Below the pieces are notes generated by a model. That model saw only the letters and a list, made by a program, of their open reading frames with translations. It was not told the DNA's origin and did no database searches. Positions 1 to 10,023 of a DNA stretch of 64,000 nt are shown piece by piece (within the stretch, counting starts at the first letter, position 1; each line of letters opens with the position of its first letter). This stretch comes from Psilocybe azurescens (lineage: Eukaryota > Basidiomycota > Agaricomycetes > Agaricales > Agrocybaceae). The stretch is taken from the NCBI GenBank assembly GCA_023853785.1, contig JAJIRX010000567.1:1-64000 (forward strand), in the 5' to 3' direction. A program made the translations under genes and the position numbers.

Positions 1-339
1 GGATAGCAGATGACGATGAGAATAGGAAAGATATCTTAACTTTGTGCATACAATGCCTGCATTAAAACCACTTATCAAACATACTAATGAATAACCAGAC
101 CCATTCAGGTGTCCATATACTGGAAACCGCTCTAAAATCGAGTAACCAAGTATGTCCATATGTAACATTGCCAAGAAGTGAGAGAAACAACAGCCCTACT
201 AATAAAATAGATAACCCACTACTACTGGTATACATAATTTCAGTCCAATCTGAATGTCAAAAGGTCCAGAGACACTAGGCGGTTGATTTGGCGGCCGCTC
301 GGGCTGGGCCTCTGGTAGCCGCCCTTGCTATTGGGGGGA
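1..339. other. No gene recognised
   Basis: No reading frame with coding character is visible on either strand, and I see no repeat or RNA gene. It lies just downstream of the 3' end of the minus-strand gene that stops at 340 and may hold its terminator region. Confidence 0.5.
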
Positions 340-1572
340 TTAACCGAGTGGCCTAAAGGTGGAAGGCATTACTCGATAAGATGTCTGATGACTACAATTT
401 CGTACTATAGCAATGAACTCACTTATCATTGGGGATATTTTAGAGGCAATAAGACTCCTAACTAGCGCTCTGATTTCGTTGTTGCCCTCAGGGTCAGAAG
501 CCTGCGGCACAGAGGCTGGGGCAGCATTGGCATTATGTGTGCTGGTGGTGACGACATTGCCACTGTTGATCACCATAGCATTGCGACCAGAGGCATTTAT
601 TCCACGTGTTACGACTGGTCTGAATGTTCCTGTAGCGGACTGAATATCATGCGTGGCGGACTGAAATACATTGGTGGTGGACTGAGCCTCATCGGAAGCG
701 GATGACTTGACGGCCTGGGGTGGAGGCCCGTAATATATCGATCTCATTTTGATATCCCCACTGCCGTAGACGAATGCATTATCTCCAGAGGCAAGAATGT
801 TCCCAGCCTCGACTGACACCTGAAAGGCTGTCGAATCAGATGTGGGGGCATTGTCATCAATAGCATCCTTTATGCATTTGACCCCTTGACTAATAGACAC
901 AATGACCTGATTCTGTTCAAATATAGAAAACCCGTCAGGAAATTTTTGAATGCGTCATCAAGCACACAGAACTAACCTGAAATACGGCTTGCGCCTGCAT
1001 CATCTGCTCCTTCAAGCTTCCAATCAATCGTTTTTCGGTACTGTTGACCAAAGCCCGTTTCCACCAAGACCTGCCACTCATTAATTGACAAGTTATCTCG
1101 ACCTGGTTTAAAGTTCTATAGCAGCATTTCAGCTCGGGCACGACACTGAGCGATTCGTGCTTCGCCATACTTGACTAGGCCTTCAACGTATGCCATCAGA
1201 TCCGCAGAAATATCTTCTCCCTGGCAGAGATCTTAGTACAAGAATCGTTGATGGATTTGACAACCATCCGCGCTGTTTGGATGAGATCCATACGTTCCGA
1301 AGAGTTGTTTCTCGTGTCCTTGTTTGCTCACATAAGTTCCTCGACACTTATGCCAATGAAACAATTTTACTCACCTCGGCGATCTTGATAATGGAGCATA
1401 GAACGTTGACCACCTTTGCAAGAGCCGGAACTGGAACGAAACCACAAACAGCTTCCAACGTTGTTAGAGTTATACGTGTATTAGCCAGAATATCATCGGT
1501 GGGATTATAGTCCGCTAAGTGGTTACGAGTCAAAGGCGCATCAACGAGTGCGGCTTCATTGGCAAGAGACAT
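340..1572 (-). CDS. HeLo/MLKL-like adaptor-domain protein with C-terminal HET-s-like repeats
   Basis: Minus-strand gene of several exons; ATG at 1572, stop at 340. Exon 1 (1572-1375) encodes a helical segment with VPVPALAKVV and ends at a GTGAGT donor. Further pieces at about 1345-950 read ANKDTRNNSSERMDLIQTAR, a stretch with MAYVEGLVKYGEARIAQC, and LIGSLKEQMMQAQAVFQ. These match the layout I know for the fungal HeLo/MLKL-type four-helix adaptor domain (family knowledge, not computed). The last exon (about 892-340) has two imperfect copies of one unit: ILASGDNAFVYGSGDI (near 750-812) and INASGRNAMVINSGNVVT (near 528-603). The second resembles HET-s-type amyloid repeats. The exons do not join cleanly: the frame changes near 1212 and an in-frame TAG lies near 1128, so the gene may be decayed or carry sequence errors. 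Function is inferred: a membrane-targeting or cell-death effector. Confidence 0.5.
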
Positions 1573-1740
1573 AATCAAGATTGATAGAGTATCAGATCAG
1601 CTGTAGCTGGTAGAAGGCGTGGTGCGTGTATAATTTGGCACAATACTATTCGATACTTAAATACCCTCGATCGAGTTGGGTGACCAAGCGCTCAGAAACA
1701 GCAACGGATTCACAACAAGACGATTCTTAATGCTGTAACT

Positions 1741-2153
1741 ATTCAGTCGAAATACAAGGGATTCTGAGAAACTGTCGAGAAAATGTACACCCACATCACG
1801 GCGGACGTACGTTATTGAGCTGTCGCCGTGTTCGTCCACAGTGACTGTCCCTGGTTACTCGCTCGGCTTAGCCGGCTACGCTTTTGTTTGTATACTTTGT
1901 GTATATTAATAACCAGGACTATGTCGCCATTACGTGTACATGTCAATGTCTGTAATTGTTCGGTCGGAATACAAGGGACTCCGAAGAAGTGTCGAACAAA
2001 CACACCTGTTCGCCCACACATCAGAAGGCGTACGCCGATGGATTGTCACCGTAGTCGCCCACAGCGACTGTCCCTTGTTACTCGCTTGGCTATGCTGTGT
2101 TTGCATATTAATAGTCGGGACTATGTTGGCACTGTGTATGCATGTCAAGGTCA
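1741..2153. repeat. Two-copy tandem duplication, about 205 bp per unit
   Basis: Copy 1 runs from 1741 to about 1951, copy 2 from 1958 to about 2153. They share blocks in the same order: AATACAAGGGA (1751, 1969), the CACAG-GACTGTCCC-GTTACTCGCT block (near 1839 and 2059), TATTAATA (near 1903 and 2106) and GGACTATGT (near 1916 and 2118). Divergence is moderate, so the duplication is not recent. No coding frame is conserved between copies. Confidence 0.75.
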
Positions 2154-3019
2154 CAGGTGGCTCAGGAAATATGTGTAAAGACGAGAAAGGAAACGTTTAC
2201 CATGGCTTTTCGCATTTTGGCCTTGGCTTACAACATTACTTCTATCCCAGCCAACGCATCAGAAATGGAGTCTAGCCTTCAGGCTAATTTTGGCTTTCTG
2301 CGCTTTGGATCTCGCCAGCTGCCGGCAGTCCCTTGTCTTGGGATAATGAATTACCCACAAACAAAGTCGATTTTTCATTCGGCTTTGATGATCAAACGCT
2401 ACTGACGAAGCTGTCGTATAACCTGACTTTACCGAAATGGACCAAAGTAAACATAGTGTCCGCCATGTCCATCGACGGGACACAGATCATAAGCGAAAGG
2501 TCAAACACACATTATGTACTACTATACGACTAGTATTCAATGTTACGATCCAATGGTGCCCTTCCCCGTCAAAGAATCACATTCATTGGAAGTCTGCTTC
2601 AATCTAGGGGCCCATGATTTTATGATTCTCAGTGCCCTACTGATATCCGGAGCGGAAAATCCCAAAATACAAATAGTTTCTGATATTTGAGGTACTCTGT
2701 ATAAGTTACTAATAGAGCTTTTGAGGCTCAAAGTTAGGCTACATACACTATGCATCATCTTTGAATGCTTGCGGGTACTCATTGACCAGCTGTGTACTGA
2801 TCCAGATGGTGAATTTTTATTGACGCGATGAAAAGGTTCTCGACAGACTAATCCGCGACAGTCTTGACGTTATTGAGCTTGCCAGTGACGTAAGCGATGG
2901 ACTGCGTAGAAATTTAACGGATGAAGGACGCTTCGGCTTTTCCATATCGTAGAACACGGAGCAAACCTCTATCGCAACTGTCCGGAGTACTCCTCCCACT
3001 TCCTCGTATGAAGCCTGAT
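2154..3019. other. No gene confidently assigned
   Basis: Open frames exist on both strands (for example 2817-2999 on the minus strand), but none resembles the C-terminal part of the neighbouring family member at 5816-7701. Part may be 3' untranslated sequence of the gene ending at 3020, or a decayed last exon of it. Confidence 0.4.
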
Positions 3020-4712
3020 TTACGTGAATTTTGGAACCCTCTTGAGGGATCCACTCGTACCAATCCGGCTCCCTTTGTACTCTAAAACGGCTTGAGAAAT
3101 ATCCGGTTCATGCTTGCTGCATCTTAAAGCAGCGGCAGCCCACAAGGTCGTTCGGTAGCAGCCAACCACTAGCTTCAGAGAACCGTTGACAGGAGTGCGC
3201 CGTTTATAGGAGGAATGAAATTCCAGATGATACCAGGAAGCTATCTGATCGTCGAAGTGACGTTCGATATAGGTCATCAGATCTTCTGGTACCACATCTT
3301 TCGAGCATCCGTCTGGTACAACGAGGATCGCTCCACCGAGACTTAAAGGTCTCGTAACCGACTTGAATAGATACCTAAAAACTCTGAAATCAATAGAAAT
3401 GAGCACCGACATCAACATTCCCGAAGAGACGAGAAACAATAACCTAGTTGTGGCGCTCCCCTCTGGCATACTGATTTTGGAAGCTTCGAAATTTTGGCTT
3501 ATATATGTTTTGTTAGACACTCGCAGTTTCTGTTTACTAGGTTTTTGCCAGCCTGCCAGCTCAAAGGGTTTGAAGGTCGGCGGTGGGCGGTAGTTCATCT
3601 TGATATTGTCTTCCTTTGACATGAATATGTTGAACATGACATTGAAGCTACCATCAGAGGCAAACATGCCCACGTCTCCCAGTGAGCAGTGCTTTTCTTG
3701 TCGCTCTCGATCGAGGGCCAGGTCGGGATAGGGATCCCATAGGCGGATTACATCTATGGCTCCGAGTCCTAACGTAGTCTTCATAGGTGCACGCATATAC
3801 GCCTCTATATTCTTGTCAGTACTATCTGGAAGCTGTAGTTTCTGTGAATTTATCTATCAGTACGTGTTGTATACATCATAATTGATGGTGATAACCTCAG
3901 CCTCCATCTTCTCAAGACGAACCCGCGGCTTGCGCGTTGCTTGTGCTTGTGCTTGTGACTCAAGGCCTACAATTTTATGAAGTAAGATGTCGGGGTAGTT
4001 GAGAACAGACTAAATACCTGGACGACCCTGATTGCGTTCTCCAGGATTCCCATGAGGCCGGGCTGTTCTTCCAGCTCTCAAAGTCGAGGCAGATCCAGTA
4101 GCCCTATTCAAGGAAGCGTCATTGCATAGCACTCGCTCTGACTGGATTACAAAGTCTTTAGAAAATGAGTGAGAAAGCATAGATGTAGCTGTCACGAACG
4201 GAATTCCATCTGGAGGGTGCTGATATGTCATTATGTCTACTGCTGCTCTCAACAGGGCCTATGCCTATTGGTATATGGAAATCAGAACCAAGGTCCACAA
4301 AGACGCAAAATACACACTTTTGCTGTGCTTAGGACCTTGGGTTCTATCGCCTTCGTGATATTTCAGTGTATTGTCACTTGTAATGATAGCGATAAAACCA
4401 AACCATTGTATTGATTGACGATTAACGTGGCGATGTTGGTTGTATTACCGCTGCTGTTATCGGTTGTGTTGGTAGTCGTCGTGACGTTGCCACTTTCCGA
4501 GATGATTGTCGAACTGGACTCTGTCAACACAACGCCAAGATAAAGAAAAAGTCAGAAGCGTTAACCTGGGAGTGGAATGGTAGCTGCGTGTGGATACCAG
4601 GTTCATCACGAGATACACCTGCAGCTTCTTCCTCCTCTGTTAACGAGTGCAGGATAGTGGAAGCAAAGCTACTCCTCCCGGACGAGCTATTGAGAGATGG
4701 GGCTTCGTTCAT
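3020..4712 (-). CDS. Agaricomycete hypothetical protein, paralogue of the gene at 5816
   Basis: Multi-exon gene. Exon 1 starts at ATG 4712 (MNEAPSLNSSSGRSS) and is Ser/Glu rich. The next coding stretch (about 4515-4385) holds ISESGNVTTTTNTTDN. The main exon (about 3796-3020) carries the family core: a LWDPYPDL segment, SLGDVGMF-SDGSFNVMFNIF, then GAILVVPDG, ASWYHLEF and LKLVVGCYRTT. The same blocks occur in order in the plus-strand gene at 5816 (IWDVV, IGDVGYL, GILVLPDG, LEWYLFF, LCIVTGCDRATTW). I recognise this as a family common in Agaricomycetes with no known function. Near 3345-3430 the open frame runs through what looks like an intron whose length is a multiple of three. The 3' end is uncertain: the counterpart continues past this point. 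The Ser-Gly-Asn-Val-Thr stretch resembles the repeats of the neighbouring adaptor gene. Confidence 0.5.
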
Positions 4713-5270
4713 TTTAACTTGTCAAATACGATGGCTGCGTGCGATGGCGAGATATGTAGTTGTCGAGTAGTGGCTGAGATGGAATCAACGATAAGATGAG
4801 GCTTGAGGCCTGAGGCCTGAGGTCTGGGGAGCGGTTTAGAAGTGTGTGGAAAACGATCGCAATTAATGTAAGTAAACAGAAGCACAGTTCTGATGGGACA
4901 TGCCGATGTTCAGTGCCAATATGTATCCACGAATCTGAACGGGTTCAAAAGCAAGAGCCAAAATAAGTAATCTTCGCATACAAATTGGTCGCAAATTAAT
5001 TAGTACCGTTGTTCGCATCCAGAAAACAAAGCGGAAGCGTTTGACAGCTTGACAGCGGCTATTTATGTACATACTACGTGGGTACTTCGCCTACACACCT
5101 GCGACACAATAATATACAACCAGCCCTCCTCGCTTAGTACCTTTTGATCCCACCAGTCACGGTGTAAACAAAAGTGTATTTACACACTTATAACCCATAG
5201 TTTTTTTCGATTCACGGACTTGGTTCGCAGGGAAATGCAATCCGTAACCCATAAGCCTGTGATACCCAAA

Positions 5271-5395
5271 GAATGTTTCGCTATGCCAGTGTCTGGCATG
5301 CTCTATGATGAGCTTTGCTTCCAAAGTTCTCACGGGGTGACCATCAAAAGCCAGCATTTTGGCATCGGGCAGTAGAGAGGGTGCTCCCCAATAAT
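5271..5395 (+). repeat. Dispersed repeat, copy A
   Basis: About 125 bp that matches 13601-13761 in the same orientation. Shared blocks include TTCGCTATGCCAGTG, TGGCATGCTCTATGA, GGGGTGACCATCAAAA and the CTCCCCAAT end. Copy A lacks about 30 bp present in copy B. Likely a fragment of a transposon or LTR; no coding content. Confidence 0.8.
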
Positions 5396-5815
5396 CCATA
5401 CTTTTGGGGGTCGGTGAACTACAACTTTTGACTTTTTCAGCTCATTTCGCGATGATTTTTCCTGATATGTCAGTATTTTAGAGCATTGATGCTATTGAAA
5501 TAGCTCCTAGCTACGGCGCACTACTGTACTAAGTACATAGGATAGGAACAAAAAGTGATCTCTCAATGCATTACATGACACGCATCGATCAGGAAGCTTG
5601 CGGTCACACCGGCTGTCCAACATTTGAGCTGTTCCTTGCTGTTGCTAATGGGCTTCCAACGGGCATCACAAGGGTATCACATAAATCAAACAAGACGGCT
5701 ATTGCCAGTTTATTTCCAAATGGAACCAATTATGTAGCTGTCCTTTTGACCAACTCAACCAGATTCAACCAGAACATATACAGCTTCGTCCTGCACTTTG
5801 ACTGGAGCCACGACG

Positions 5816-7701
5816 ATGGACAACCAGGGCGACGACATGGTAACAGAATGCCATTCTTGTTCCTCTATTCATATTTGAACTTTTGTTCAGGCCGTGGATG
5901 ATCGTGATCCTGAGGGACCATATCCTGGGGATAACAGAACTTCAGAAGATACTCATTCACAACGAGGTATGCCGGTACTGCATAAAGCGTGAAGCGCTCT
6001 CATTTTCCGCCAGATTCGATTGCGCGTCCATATCAAGCCATTTTAAACGATACCAGCTTTGCACGATGCCATGCAATCTCTTGCCCATCAAGCGGAACGG
6101 AAACCTATACTCGCTCTCTTTTAATGTTGGGAAATGGCCTTCCGATCTGGGACGTAGTTGGAACTGTGGATCGGCCGCAGCACCATTTCAAGTCGGGGGT
6201 TATGATAGGTGACGTTGGATATCTCAGCGTTGACGGTGATTTCTTCTGTTACTTCAATATTTTTCTGCCCGCAAGCAACGAGTTACAGTCCCGCTTTCCT
6301 CCCAACATGGAGCCTCTCCTCCCTCCGCCGCAGCCGGATGAAATTAAGACAGATGCGAACCATTTCCTCCCGGCACCACACTTGTCAGTACGGGAGTGGA
6401 AGTGACCCAAGTCTCCGCGTCGCCTTTGTGACTATGTTCCACTTTGTACTGCTTCTACTTTACTAAAGCACCTTGCACAACTCAGAGATCTTAAGTTCAC
6501 GGTCAAAGCACGTGAATGTGGAATACTCGTTCTGCCAGACGGTGCGTCTCGTGAAGATCTTGTGTCGACAACTCGGATTCGCGACTACGTCCAAAAACAC
6601 GCATTGGAGTGGTATCTATTCTTTAATGGCGGAAGAGGCAACGTTGCATTTCCGAATGGATCACTTTGCATTGTTACCGGCTGCGACAGAGCTACGACAT
6701 GGGCGACATGTACCTCGGATCCACGATCTCTCACTCAGGCGGGTATTATCACTAATCGCTACAAGGACGGAAAATTCCACAACGACAGCGATATGCAAAG
6801 TCTCTGGTCTCAAGCAGACGATGGCACCGAGAAGTGTGCAGTGTTTGTACGTGCTATGAGGGTGGCTGTGAATATCAGTGATTGGACACAACATGTCCTA
6901 CAGTATGAACCCCACGCCGCATTCCCTTCTACAATATGCTCTCTGTTCCTGTTGTTGGGGTTCGAGCGCGCTTTCGGACATTCAAGGAAGTGCGATTCCG
7001 ACAAACAGACAAACATGTAGCTCGAGGGGAAAACTGGTGTGTCACCTTCAATCTCCATGTATAGTCCTATCTCCACGAGGCTGAGTAGACACCCTAGTGT
7101 ATATTTCATCCACTGGAAGTCATTCTCCACATTCTTCTTAACGAGGTAGGCTGCACTTATATATTAAATCTTGGATTTTCCTTACTAACTTTCGACAGAC
7201 TCCAACAGCTGACGTGGCGTTTGCTGAAGATTCCATGTGGTGTCATCTCGCTAACAAGGTACGTCCCAGATGCTTAATGTGTCTTTCACCCGTAAGCTGA
7301 TCATGCTGTTCAGAGCGATGGAAGAATTGCCCAAACTTTCGAATTGCTGATCAGGATACTAGAGACTCACGAGATTTTGAGCGAAGAAGGCAAGATCTTC
7401 CTGGTTTTTCAAATGCGTTGATGACTTTCTTATCTCATGCCATTAGGAATGGTAACTTTGGTTCCTGTGGGCTCCCATGAACCACCCCAGGTAATATGCC
7501 CTCACGTCGCATTGTGCATCTCTTGCTTAGTCCATTTCCTTCTAGAGTGCGGCTTCCTCTTTGAGCAAATTCTTTCTCCATATACCTTCACTTGTCCTAC
7601 AAGAATATAAGGCCAGGCGTCGGCATCGGGAGGCTGTCCACAAGGTCGCGAAGGTGTTTCCAGGGCCCGGAATGCCTGCAGAGTCTTTGAGATCTGGGTG
7701 A
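5816..7701 (+). CDS. Agaricomycete hypothetical protein, paralogue of the gene at 3020-4712
   Basis: A full model can be read. Exon 1 is 5816-5839 and exon 2 is 5891-5966. Exon 3 is 6014-6387, after a 47-base intron that joins in frame. Exon 4 starts at 6469. Later exons include the stretch with IFHPLEVILHILLNE then TPTADVAFAEDSMWCHLA, and the last exon ends in a Lys/Arg-rich tail at TGA 7699-7701. The core has IGDVGYLSVDGDFFCYFNIF, GILVLPDGASREDL, LEWYLFFNG and SLCIVTGCDRATTWATC. This is the architecture of a family I know only as uncharacterised Agaricomycete proteins; the cysteine-bearing VTGCDKAT-type block is its most constant part. Function unknown. It sits on the opposite strand from its paralogue, about 1.1 kb away, with a repeat copy (5271-5395) between them. 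Confidence 0.65.
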
Positions 7702-8269
7702 ATGACGTCTTTTACATACTATCATATCCGAGGTTCTTCAGAAATACTGTTCAGTGTCTCTTTTACTTTTATTTGCAGTAATACTCTGTCCAGAGCATTA
7801 ATGGCCTGTTTTCGTATTCTGGGTTTTATCTAGTTCAAGTTACATCTGATATACATATTGTCGTGTATCTAAATGCATCTTGTATATAAATCCCTTCTGC
7901 AGGGCACTGGGCACTCCTGGGTCTATCGAATAATAGTAAGTAGACTCCAATTCTATGAATACTGGTCCTGGGGTATTAGTACATGTGTAAGTGTCTCCAA
8001 GTCTTCTCTGCAGTAACCACTGAACAGCACACTTTGGGACTAAGTACCATTGTTCATGGATACGAGCTCCCGGAATTGGCTAGTGTTTTTAATGTCTGGC
8101 TTCCCATCTTAGACTTCTAGCACCTAGCTCCCTCTGGTGACTGTTCTCTGGAAGAAGCATCAGGCTATCATGAGATCCAGAAGTGCCCATACCAAAGTAC
8201 CCCACAAGGTCAACTGTCATGTTAGGATCACGTGACCATGACCCTTAGTCACTTCGGTGCAGAATTTAT
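7702..8269. other. No gene recognised
   Basis: Intergenic, increasingly AT-rich towards the transposon at 8431. No coding frame longer than 60 codons and no RNA gene seen. Confidence 0.5.
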
Positions 8270-8430
8270 GGGAACTTTGTAGATCAACTACAAGTCAACC
8301 TTCAATGTACAAATTTAGAGGTTCTTTGTATTTGAAGTACAAAGAGACTTTGTAGATCATCATGTATTTGATATAATTAACATGGTAAAAGGAAACTTTG
8401 TGTTTAAAATATAAATTGATCCTATATATA
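8270..8430. repeat. Degenerate short-period repeat, left of the Tc1 element
   Basis: Variants of a GGAACTTTGTATTTGAAATA-like unit recur near 8270, 8311, 8346 and 8388. Further variants lie right of the transposon near 10062 and 10134. The transposon therefore appears to have inserted into a pre-existing degenerate tandem repeat. Confidence 0.45.
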
Positions 8431-8640
8431 CAGTAGCTCAAAAAACTGTCCCAATGTTTGGCACTTTCTCACTAATTGTTTAATAACTTGGGAAATAAAT
8501 TTTGTAAAAGTCTGAAAATATTATATGTTATAGTTTAACATGTAACTAACATATTTCTCACCAAGGTCACATGATTTTAACAAACACTGATTAAGTAATG
8601 GAATTTACAAAATAATAGAGCATTGGGACAGTTTTTTGAC
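8431..8640 (+). repeat. Left terminal inverted repeat of the Tc1 element
   Basis: Matches the reverse complement of 9817-10023 almost completely. The block AAAACTGTCCCAATG occurs at the outer end (near 8441), and its inverse CATTGGGACAGTTTT at the inner end (near 8621), so the repeat is itself flanked by inverted sites. Confidence 0.92.
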
Positions 8641-8647
8641 TCTCTAT

Positions 8648-9667
8648 CTAGTACTTAGTATGGCCTCCCTTTGCCTTGATAACAGCCTCCATTCTCCTTG
8701 GCATGCTTTCTATAAGCCTTTGGCATGTTTCTGAACATATTTCAGTCCATTCCTTTGCCAATCTCTCCCACAATTCAAATGCTCCTTTGGGTGGTGTCTC
8801 ATAGGTGTTCATTTGCCTTTTGAGGTAAACCCAAAGGTGTTCAATGGGGTTGAGATCAGGGGATTGTGGTGGCCACTCCATAACTTCAACATCATTGGCC
8901 AAAACCATTCTTGAGCTTTTTTGAGGTGTGTTTGGGGTCATTATCCTGCTGAAAAATCCTTTTCCCTCTGCCATCTCCAAGTTGTCAAAGCTTTCATCCA
9001 CCCCATGCTCCAAAATTCACAGTATTGGTCTGCATTCATCTTCCTCTCAACCTCAGTGAGTGTTCCAACACCATTCCACCCCATACAAGCCCATACCATG
9101 AGATTGTTGCCCCCTCCATGCTTGACAGTTGGTAATGTTCTATCTGAGATTGCTTCACCCTTGGGTTTCCATGTATAGACCCTTCCATCTGAGCCAATCC
9201 TGTTGATTTTTGTTTCATCTGACCAGAGTACTCTTTTCCAATCCTCCACAGTCCAGCCAACATGATTCTGGGCAAATTTTAGGTGTTTTTGACGGTGGAT
9301 AGCCTTGAGGAGGGCCGTTTTGATTTAACAACAGAGCGGAAGTTGTTTTCTTTGAGGGCATTTCTGACTGTTTGGGCACAAACAGGAGAGGGAATAGCAT
9401 CATTGATGAAGTGTGTTGTCTGGACAGCATTGTCCAGCTTTCCTGTTTTGATTTGACGAAAAAGGACCTGTTTATCCTTGGGAGTAAGCTTGGAGGGACA
9501 TCCATCTTTGTTGTTTTGGGGTTTTCTTTGTTGGCATCCACTTTCCTCTTGATTCTTCCAACAGTAGACTTTCCCAAGCCAGTTTTAGACTCTATTTGAT
9601 AAAGAGAATAGCCCTCTTCAAGAAGATTGAGGACAGAATTGTATTGAGAAGGTGTTGCAGGCTTCAT
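8648..9667 (-). pseudogene. Tc1/mariner transposase, frameshifted
   Basis: Start chosen at ATG 9667, just before a paired helix-turn-helix region (YSLYQIESKTGLGKSTVGRI) typical of Tc1 transposases. The catalytic DDE landmarks are all visible: WSDETKIN (first Asp), FQQDNDPKHT (second Asp) and SPDLNPIEHLW (third acidic residue). They lie in different reading frames: breaks fall near 9550-9290 and again near 8960-8900. The expected length is about 340 residues, and the total span fits. Either the gene is inactivated or homopolymer errors split it. Confidence 0.85.
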
Positions 9668-9816
9668 GATGTGGTGGTTAAAGAGAAAGATGGTTGAACT
9701 TGAATTCAACATTTCAAATGTGTACAAATAGTGTCACATGACCTTGTTTAATTTTCTCACAATTTATACAAAGCAATTTGGCTTTCTACAAGCATGTAAA
9801 GCTATTATTTTATAGG

Positions 9817-10023
9817 GTCAAAAACTGTCCCAATGTTTTATTATTTTGTAAATTCCATTACTTAATCAGTGTTTGTTAAAATCATGTGACCTTGGTGAGA
9901 AATATGTTAGTCACATGTTGAACTATAACATATAATATTTTCAGACTTTTACATAATTTATTTTTAAGTTATTAAACAATTAGTGAGAAAGTGCCAAACA
10001 TTGGGACAGTTTTTGAGCTACTG
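9817..10023 (-). repeat. Right terminal inverted repeat of the Tc1 element
   Basis: Near-exact inverse of 8431-8640, with the same inner and outer CTGTCCCAATG sites. Ends at GAGCTACTG followed by TA. Confidence 0.92.

Follow-up and report, generated by a model that had tools for sequence, protein, structure and literature searches.

A candidate amyloid-signalling effector beside a putative non-NLR partner, found as two pairs in Psilocybe azurescens

Does the end of a Psilocybe azurescens contig hold an amyloid-signalling gene pair in which the partner of the effector is not a NOD-like receptor (NLR)? Fungal amyloid signalling is known to run from NLRs to HeLo-type effectors and has been charted mainly in ascomycetes. 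The stretch analysed here (the window) covers the initial 64 kb of contig JAJIRX010000567.1 (C477), in an assembly of 70.4 Mb and 937 contigs. An initial annotation of the window had proposed that a gene with a HeLo/MLKL-like N-terminus and two C-terminal repeats is an effector, and that the next gene, which carries a matching motif, is its sensor. We refer to the effector gene (340-1572, minus strand) as E1, to its neighbour as S1 and to their diverged copies on contig C457 as E2 and S2. The pair was found duplicated, both effectors carry the repeats, both genes show constraint at the protein level, and the two co-occur in this genome. It is possible, and we hold it tentatively, that E1 and E2 are regulated cell-death effectors with an amyloid-like switch and that S1 and S2 are their cognate non-NLR partners.

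The effector gene is present as annotated, on the minus strand, with four exons (1572-1375, 1318-1171, 1115-977 and 912-340, the splicing being placed with the help of the paralogue E2) and GT-AG introns of 56, 55 and 64 bases. Exon 1 (1375-1572; MSLAN...IIKIAE) starts the candidate MLKL/HeLo-like helical domain and is 55% identical to exon 1 of E2; the domain continues in exon 2 (1171-1318), the end of which was set by the aligned E2 intron, and ends in exon 3 (977-1115; ...SWWKRALVNSTEKRLIGSLKEQMMQAQAVFQ; 50% identical to E2). Exon 4 (340-912) is an open frame, 31-39% identical to exon 4 of E2, and encodes a stalk, two repeats, a linker, a candidate C-terminal helix and the stop. The window copy of exon 2 contains a frame shift, which may be an assembly error: it sits where four assembly copies of the locus disagree, and the reading frame of the C457 copy stays open at that point. 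The in-frame stop past the frame shift lies within intron 2 of E1, to which an E2 intron aligns. For these reasons we rejected the possibility that E1 is a pseudogene; the gene is probably intact and the assembly noisy.

The two copies of one unit that had been claimed for the C-terminus of E1 were confirmed. The last exon carries two related 25-residue units, repeat 1 (739-813, minus strand; VEAGNILASGDNAFVYGSGDIKMRS) and repeat 2 (538-612, minus strand; VTRGINASGRNAMVINSGNVVTTST), and E2 keeps both in a clearer form (QKIDVGEDAEAENTGNVETT and QGIKIGRGARVNNVGNVTTT, in full VVAQKIDVGEDAEAENTGNVETTTF and VETQGIKIGRGARVNNVGNVTTTAT). The internal similarity was equalled by 3 of 1000 shuffles in E1 and by none of 1000 in E2, so that both contain two related C-terminal pseudo-repeats such as those (of ~21 residues) of proteins with HET-s-related amyloid motifs (HRAMs). 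Between E1 and E2 the repeats, including the two copies of repeat 2, matched better than in any of 1000 shuffles. Near its end, each of the four effector repeats has G[DN] and then V or I. Repeat 2 is followed in both paralogues by a candidate amphipathic C-terminal helix (403-477 in E1, minus strand), which was identified by alignment and is helical in a low-confidence structure model.

A second pair lies on C457, with E2 at 25,579-24,470 and S2 at ~31.0-29.0 kb, both on the minus strand; the cores of S1 and S2 share 60% identity. In both pairs E and S share a strand and S is the upstream gene, at a distance of 1.2 kb in pair 1, where unrecognised plus-strand frames fill part of the gap, and of 3.4 kb in pair 2. 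C457, when reversed, overlaps window positions 1-9816; it probably continues the chromosome past window position 1, or it could represent another haplotype. On C457 the two pairs face opposite ways, with the effectors 15 kb apart, all four genes within 26 kb (5.1-31.0 kb), and COX4-like and JAB/MitMem_reg-domain genes between the pairs.

Genome searches, in which only the best candidates were scored and short queries were insensitive (the query with repeat 2 missed the repeat of E1 itself), recovered E only in the two pairs and as a weak match on contig C470. For the N-terminal S/T/N-rich stretch of S1 no matches were recovered beyond S1 itself, in four assembly copies, and S2 (E 0.0019). Both of the E genes found thus have an upstream S gene on the same strand that bears this stretch, and it is their co-occurrence in this genome that speaks most strongly for a functional pair. 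Comparison of E1 with E2 over exons 1-3 gave proportions of nonsynonymous (pN) and synonymous (pS) differences of 0.283 and 0.818, the synonymous sites being saturated, and that of the S1 and S2 cores gave 0.215 and 0.603, which indicates that E and S are both under protein-level constraint.

The S1 stretch (4402-4524, minus strand; SGNVTTTTNTTDNSSGN, with SGNVTTTT), which has a counterpart in S2, is a candidate sensor-side motif. When a profile of the four effector repeats was compared with 8,498 open frames, taken from part of the genome DNA, no sequence outside the effectors matched better than the S1 stretch, which reached only E 0.74. The likeness between repeat 2 and the stretch was reached, per 1000 shuffles, by 16 (E1 with S1), 3 (E1 with S2), 9 (E2 with S1) and 54 (E2 with S2), i.e. 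by fewer than 2% in three of the four tests and by 5.4% in the fourth; for these tests S1 and S2 were joined across an assumed splice junction. When contiguous stretches were used instead, with 1614 real 34-residue segments as controls (only 12 of them T/N/S-rich), the same four comparisons were equalled by 1, 0, 1 and 3 segments; for repeat 1 of E2 these numbers were 0 and 8, and for repeat 1 of E1 68 and 217. The motif match of the initial annotation was partly supported: repeat 2 resembles the stretch above composition expectation, but the match is modest and, as described below, is neither significant for repeat 1 in shuffle tests nor specific to a pair.

We infer a helical membrane domain, amyloid formation, templating, cell death and a ligand as the parts of the following mechanism. 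E would contain an N-terminal four-helix membrane domain of the MLKL/HeLo type that is kept quiet until the repeats stack, and its two C-terminal repeats would, as beta-arches, stack into an amyloid-like beta-solenoid. The non-NLR core of S would act as the sensor, of a ligand or of a self/non-self state. The N-terminal stretch of S, once clustered, would be the template on which the repeats of E polymerise; polymerisation would free the helical domain and lead to membrane permeabilisation. E most probably acts on membranes as a helical effector that is released when its repeats stack in an amyloid-like manner, and the template may come from S or from a distant NLR. The complete cassette is unlikely; in it, an expanded mushroom family would supply a non-NLR receptor whose short N-terminal template switches on an MLKL-type pore-former encoded nearby, and the double repeat of this pore-former would have a new register outside the HRAM one. 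The proposal is best treated as a hypothesis, which the second pair and the clearer repeats of E2 support better than the first reading of the locus could, and which the failed profile tests weaken. If true, fungal amyloid signalling would gain a second receptor class, there would be a clue to what a large, uncharacterised family of mushroom genes does, and somatic incompatibility or immune cell death in mushrooms could be tested at the molecular level.

The arrangement can be compared with two known systems. Like the HET-S/NWD2 and HRAM pairs of ascomycetes (PMC4518210), the locus combines a candidate helical effector that has two C-terminal pseudo-repeats of ~21-25 residues with a neighbour that has one N-terminal motif-like stretch, of low charge and nearer to repeat 2. 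The published NLR-side motifs are poorer in charge and, in HRAM1 and HRAM4, tend to be closer to repeat 2, the opposite trend being reported for HRAM2 (PMC4518210). Unlike these pairs, the register is not found beyond shuffles, the neighbour is not an NLR, the linker of E1 is much longer, and a helix candidate follows the repeats. With the BaMLKL proteins and the NLR05/08/22/29/44 motifs of Agaricomycetes (PMC9815663) the locus shares a candidate MLKL-type N-terminus and a core of ~25 residues with, by eye, a C-terminal G[DN] in 4/4 effector repeats; the published motif has a 25-residue core, three N-terminal hydrophobic residues and a C-terminal G[DN]. In that survey, of 500 BaMLKL proteins only a few carried amyloid-like motifs and the neighbouring NLRs carried none, and virtually no NLR-side motif of basidiomycetes was found co-localised with an effector-side motif; here, unlike in the survey, the neighbour of E is a non-NLR gene. 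No non-NLR partner of this kind is described in the available parts of the fungal amyloid-signalling literature examined (PMC9815663, PMC7889193, PMC12881547, PMC4518210 and PMC5485727), which is no proof of absence, and a linked non-NLR partner would be new.

Several observations weigh against the proposed effector-partner system, the first group of which concerns the repeats. The HRAM register consists of an invariant G19 and hydrophobic residues at positions 5, 8, 10, 16 and 18 (PMC4518210); counted strictly, the best scores were 3 of 5 in E1, 2 in E2, 0 in S1 and 1 in S2, and most shuffles reach these counts. When A and T were also counted as hydrophobic, one glycine of E1 had all 5 positions, yet 372 of 2000 shuffles did equally well. 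The repeats are offset by 66 residues in E1 and by 31 in E2, so that the paralogues differ; the inter-repeat loop measures 6-18 residues in 154/155 published cases (PMC4518210), a range into which E2 fits and outside which E1 falls. The Pfam family PF11558 did not match the pieces of E or the spliced E1 and E2, which is weak evidence because only 38/155 known double-repeat proteins match that family (PMC4518210); over the whole genome the PF11558 search was empty, but its control also gave no match. PDB profile searches with the repeats, the effector and the sensor core gave weak matches at E 0.35 or worse, or none. Checking the last exon against HRAM models thus turned out negative for both PF11558 and the published register, and we rejected the repeats as canonical HRAMs. 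From the register counts and the missing PF11558 match it follows that they are HET-s-like double repeats by layout that fall outside HRAM1-5 as defined; of the HET-s-type likeness that had been noted, the layout stood, more clearly in E2, but the register did not exceed shuffles.

The second group concerns the pairing. In shuffle tests repeat 1 did not resemble the S stretches significantly (212, 281, 61 and 111 of 1000 shuffles), and the alignment scores of repeat 2 were 40 for E1 with S2, 35 for E1 with S1, 36 for E2 with S1 and 31 for E2 with S2. Cognate combinations do not score above crossed ones, and this lack of preference argues against pair-specific co-evolution. By eye G[DN] is found in S1 and not in S2, which has NN. 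Another S-family piece lies on the opposite strand between S2 and E2 (27.3-28.5 kb), and the linkage is one independent observation because both pairs lie within 26 kb.

The third group concerns the N-terminus of E, for which the claimed HeLo/MLKL-like character was not borne out by a direct profile match. Neither the pieces of E1 nor the spliced E1 and E2 matched HeLo, Helo_like_N or MLKL_N in Pfam; the only Pfam matches of E were sub-threshold and unrelated (DUF1697, E 0.19; OprB, E 0.013), and a PDB profile search with the effector was empty. Two true MLKL_N (PF22215) genes, on contigs C506 and C479, are alike in their presumed four-helix type, but profile comparison showed no significant similarity to E (probability 0.65%, from two-sequence profiles, which are weak). 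Structure predictions were of low confidence (pLDDT 34.2 and 34.9). The sole link to MLKL is weak and runs through the best genome match outside the E family (C470:53144; E 0.07; 30% identity over 56 residues, pairwise 2e-07): the N-terminus encoded there matches MLKL_N at E 0.014, below the cut-off, and as a query it found only itself and not E. The N-terminus of E may resemble mushroom MLKL-type domains (PVPAL...ILKI.E), a likeness that is a lead only. At C470:52700-55200 the MLKL_N-like N-terminus is apparently followed by a kinase-like stretch (HGD loop, by eye), as in animal MLKL, although the short pieces that were compared with Pfam matched no kinase family.

Of the alternatives, it is somewhat unlikely that E1 and E2 are amyloid-controlled death effectors triggered by distant NLRs, as proposed in other Agaricomycetes, with S1 and S2 as bystanders of a local family cluster. 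Potential receptors are abundant, since a genome search for NPHP3_N, in which the best 150 of 459 candidates were scored, gave at least 151 matches; NLR-side motifs occur away from effectors in Agaricomycetes (PMC9815663), and S-family pieces crowd the region anyway. Against this, the motif of the E repeats had no match in six NLR upstream stretches, a tiny sample of the at least 151 matches in which two are near-identical, the query with repeat 2 found no further site in the genome (an insensitive search, as noted above), and the N-terminal stretch was found in S1 and S2 only. The neighbour of E is not itself an NLR, no NLR domain being found by Pfam in the S1 pieces scanned or in the S relative P0001. 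Among the NPHP3_N matches listed none lies on C457, and the nearest is on C477 at 373 kb; absence of an adjacent NLR does not exclude an amyloid effector, because only 98/155 of the published set have one (PMC4518210). Three of the six sampled NLR upstream stretches, two of these three near-identical, carry a form of ISGGTHTLV or IEGGTFNTV, which is possibly a basidiomycete NLR-side amyloid-like motif.

It is distinctly unlikely that E and S work as a pair in which no amyloid is involved, S binds and restrains E in the manner of a guard or a toxin-antidote system and the repeats are a static beta-solenoid stalk or oligomerisation element. The duplication and constraint of the pair, the absence of the HRAM register and the helix candidate after the repeats in both paralogues agree with such an arrangement, which leaves the likeness between repeat 2 and the S stretch unexplained. 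That there is no functional link, E being an orphan helical protein, the S stretch low-complexity and the pair copied by one segmental duplication, is improbable: both pairs do lie within 26 kb, the profile match of the motif reaches only E 0.74 and cognate specificity is lacking, but both members of both pairs are constrained and the similarity of the repeats is well beyond shuffles.

The proposed partner S1 belongs to a multigene family. Its core is encoded on the minus strand by exon a (3473-3853; GDVGMFASDGSFNVMFNI...) and exon b (3074-3373; GAILVVPDGCSKD...SWYHLEF...NGSLKLVVGC), the latter resembling P0001, and is followed by a conserved C-terminus (2820-3071; EPDWYEW...SRLSRISLSRTFSSRQ) in a frame that differs from that of 3023-3853. 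The gene had been placed at 3020-4712; a gene with the SGNVTTTTNTTDNSSGN stretch is indeed present there, but we rejected an end at 3020, as the C-terminus common to S2 and P0001 runs on in the other frame to 2820. The four assembly copies are equal in length at the frame change, so that the change is real unless all four share the same error. The 5' exons of S1 and S2 were only partly placed. At 2820-2876 (minus strand) S1, S2 and P0001 have in common a tail, SRLSRIxLxxTFSxxQ, which is possibly a basic membrane- or partner-binding tail.

The S1 core gave 46 exon-level genome matches at E<=1, of which 24 at E<=0.001; six of the 46 are S2 or copies of S1, and some of the rest represent copies, or different exons, of a single gene, which makes the number of genes lower. 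No Pfam match above the cut-offs was found for the S family in the pieces scanned, and PDB matches were at E 0.7 or worse. The annotation of the core as uncharacterised and non-NLR accordingly held, whereas a new sensor type was not shown. Protein-database searches returned a single S relative, P0001 (208 amino acids; 68% identical over 37% of the query), and no relatives of E at E<=10. The window also contains, at 5533-7830 (plus strand), another gene with the S core, and relatives at ~33, 40, 56-59 and 62-65 kb of C457 form a family cluster.

Other features of the region are minor. Between E1 and S1 there are short open frames at 2202-2690 (plus strand), which had no match in Pfam at E<=1 and belong to an unrecognised gene or to a gene remnant, and a direct duplication of ~200 bp at 1733-2152, the pieces of which are 73-78% identical. 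The first 10 kb of the window recur on contigs C456 and C476 and at C457:1-9.8 kb with ~99.5% identity and differences that are mostly gaps. These four copies (window 1-10000; C477, C476, C456 and C457), which lie at contig ends or on 10-kb contigs, reflect assembly redundancy or haplotypes and were counted as one locus, not as independent evidence. Finally, a frame at 9218-9733 (minus strand) encodes a helix-turn-helix with a weak match, below the cut-off, to the resolvase family HTH_7, and is possibly a piece of a transposon.

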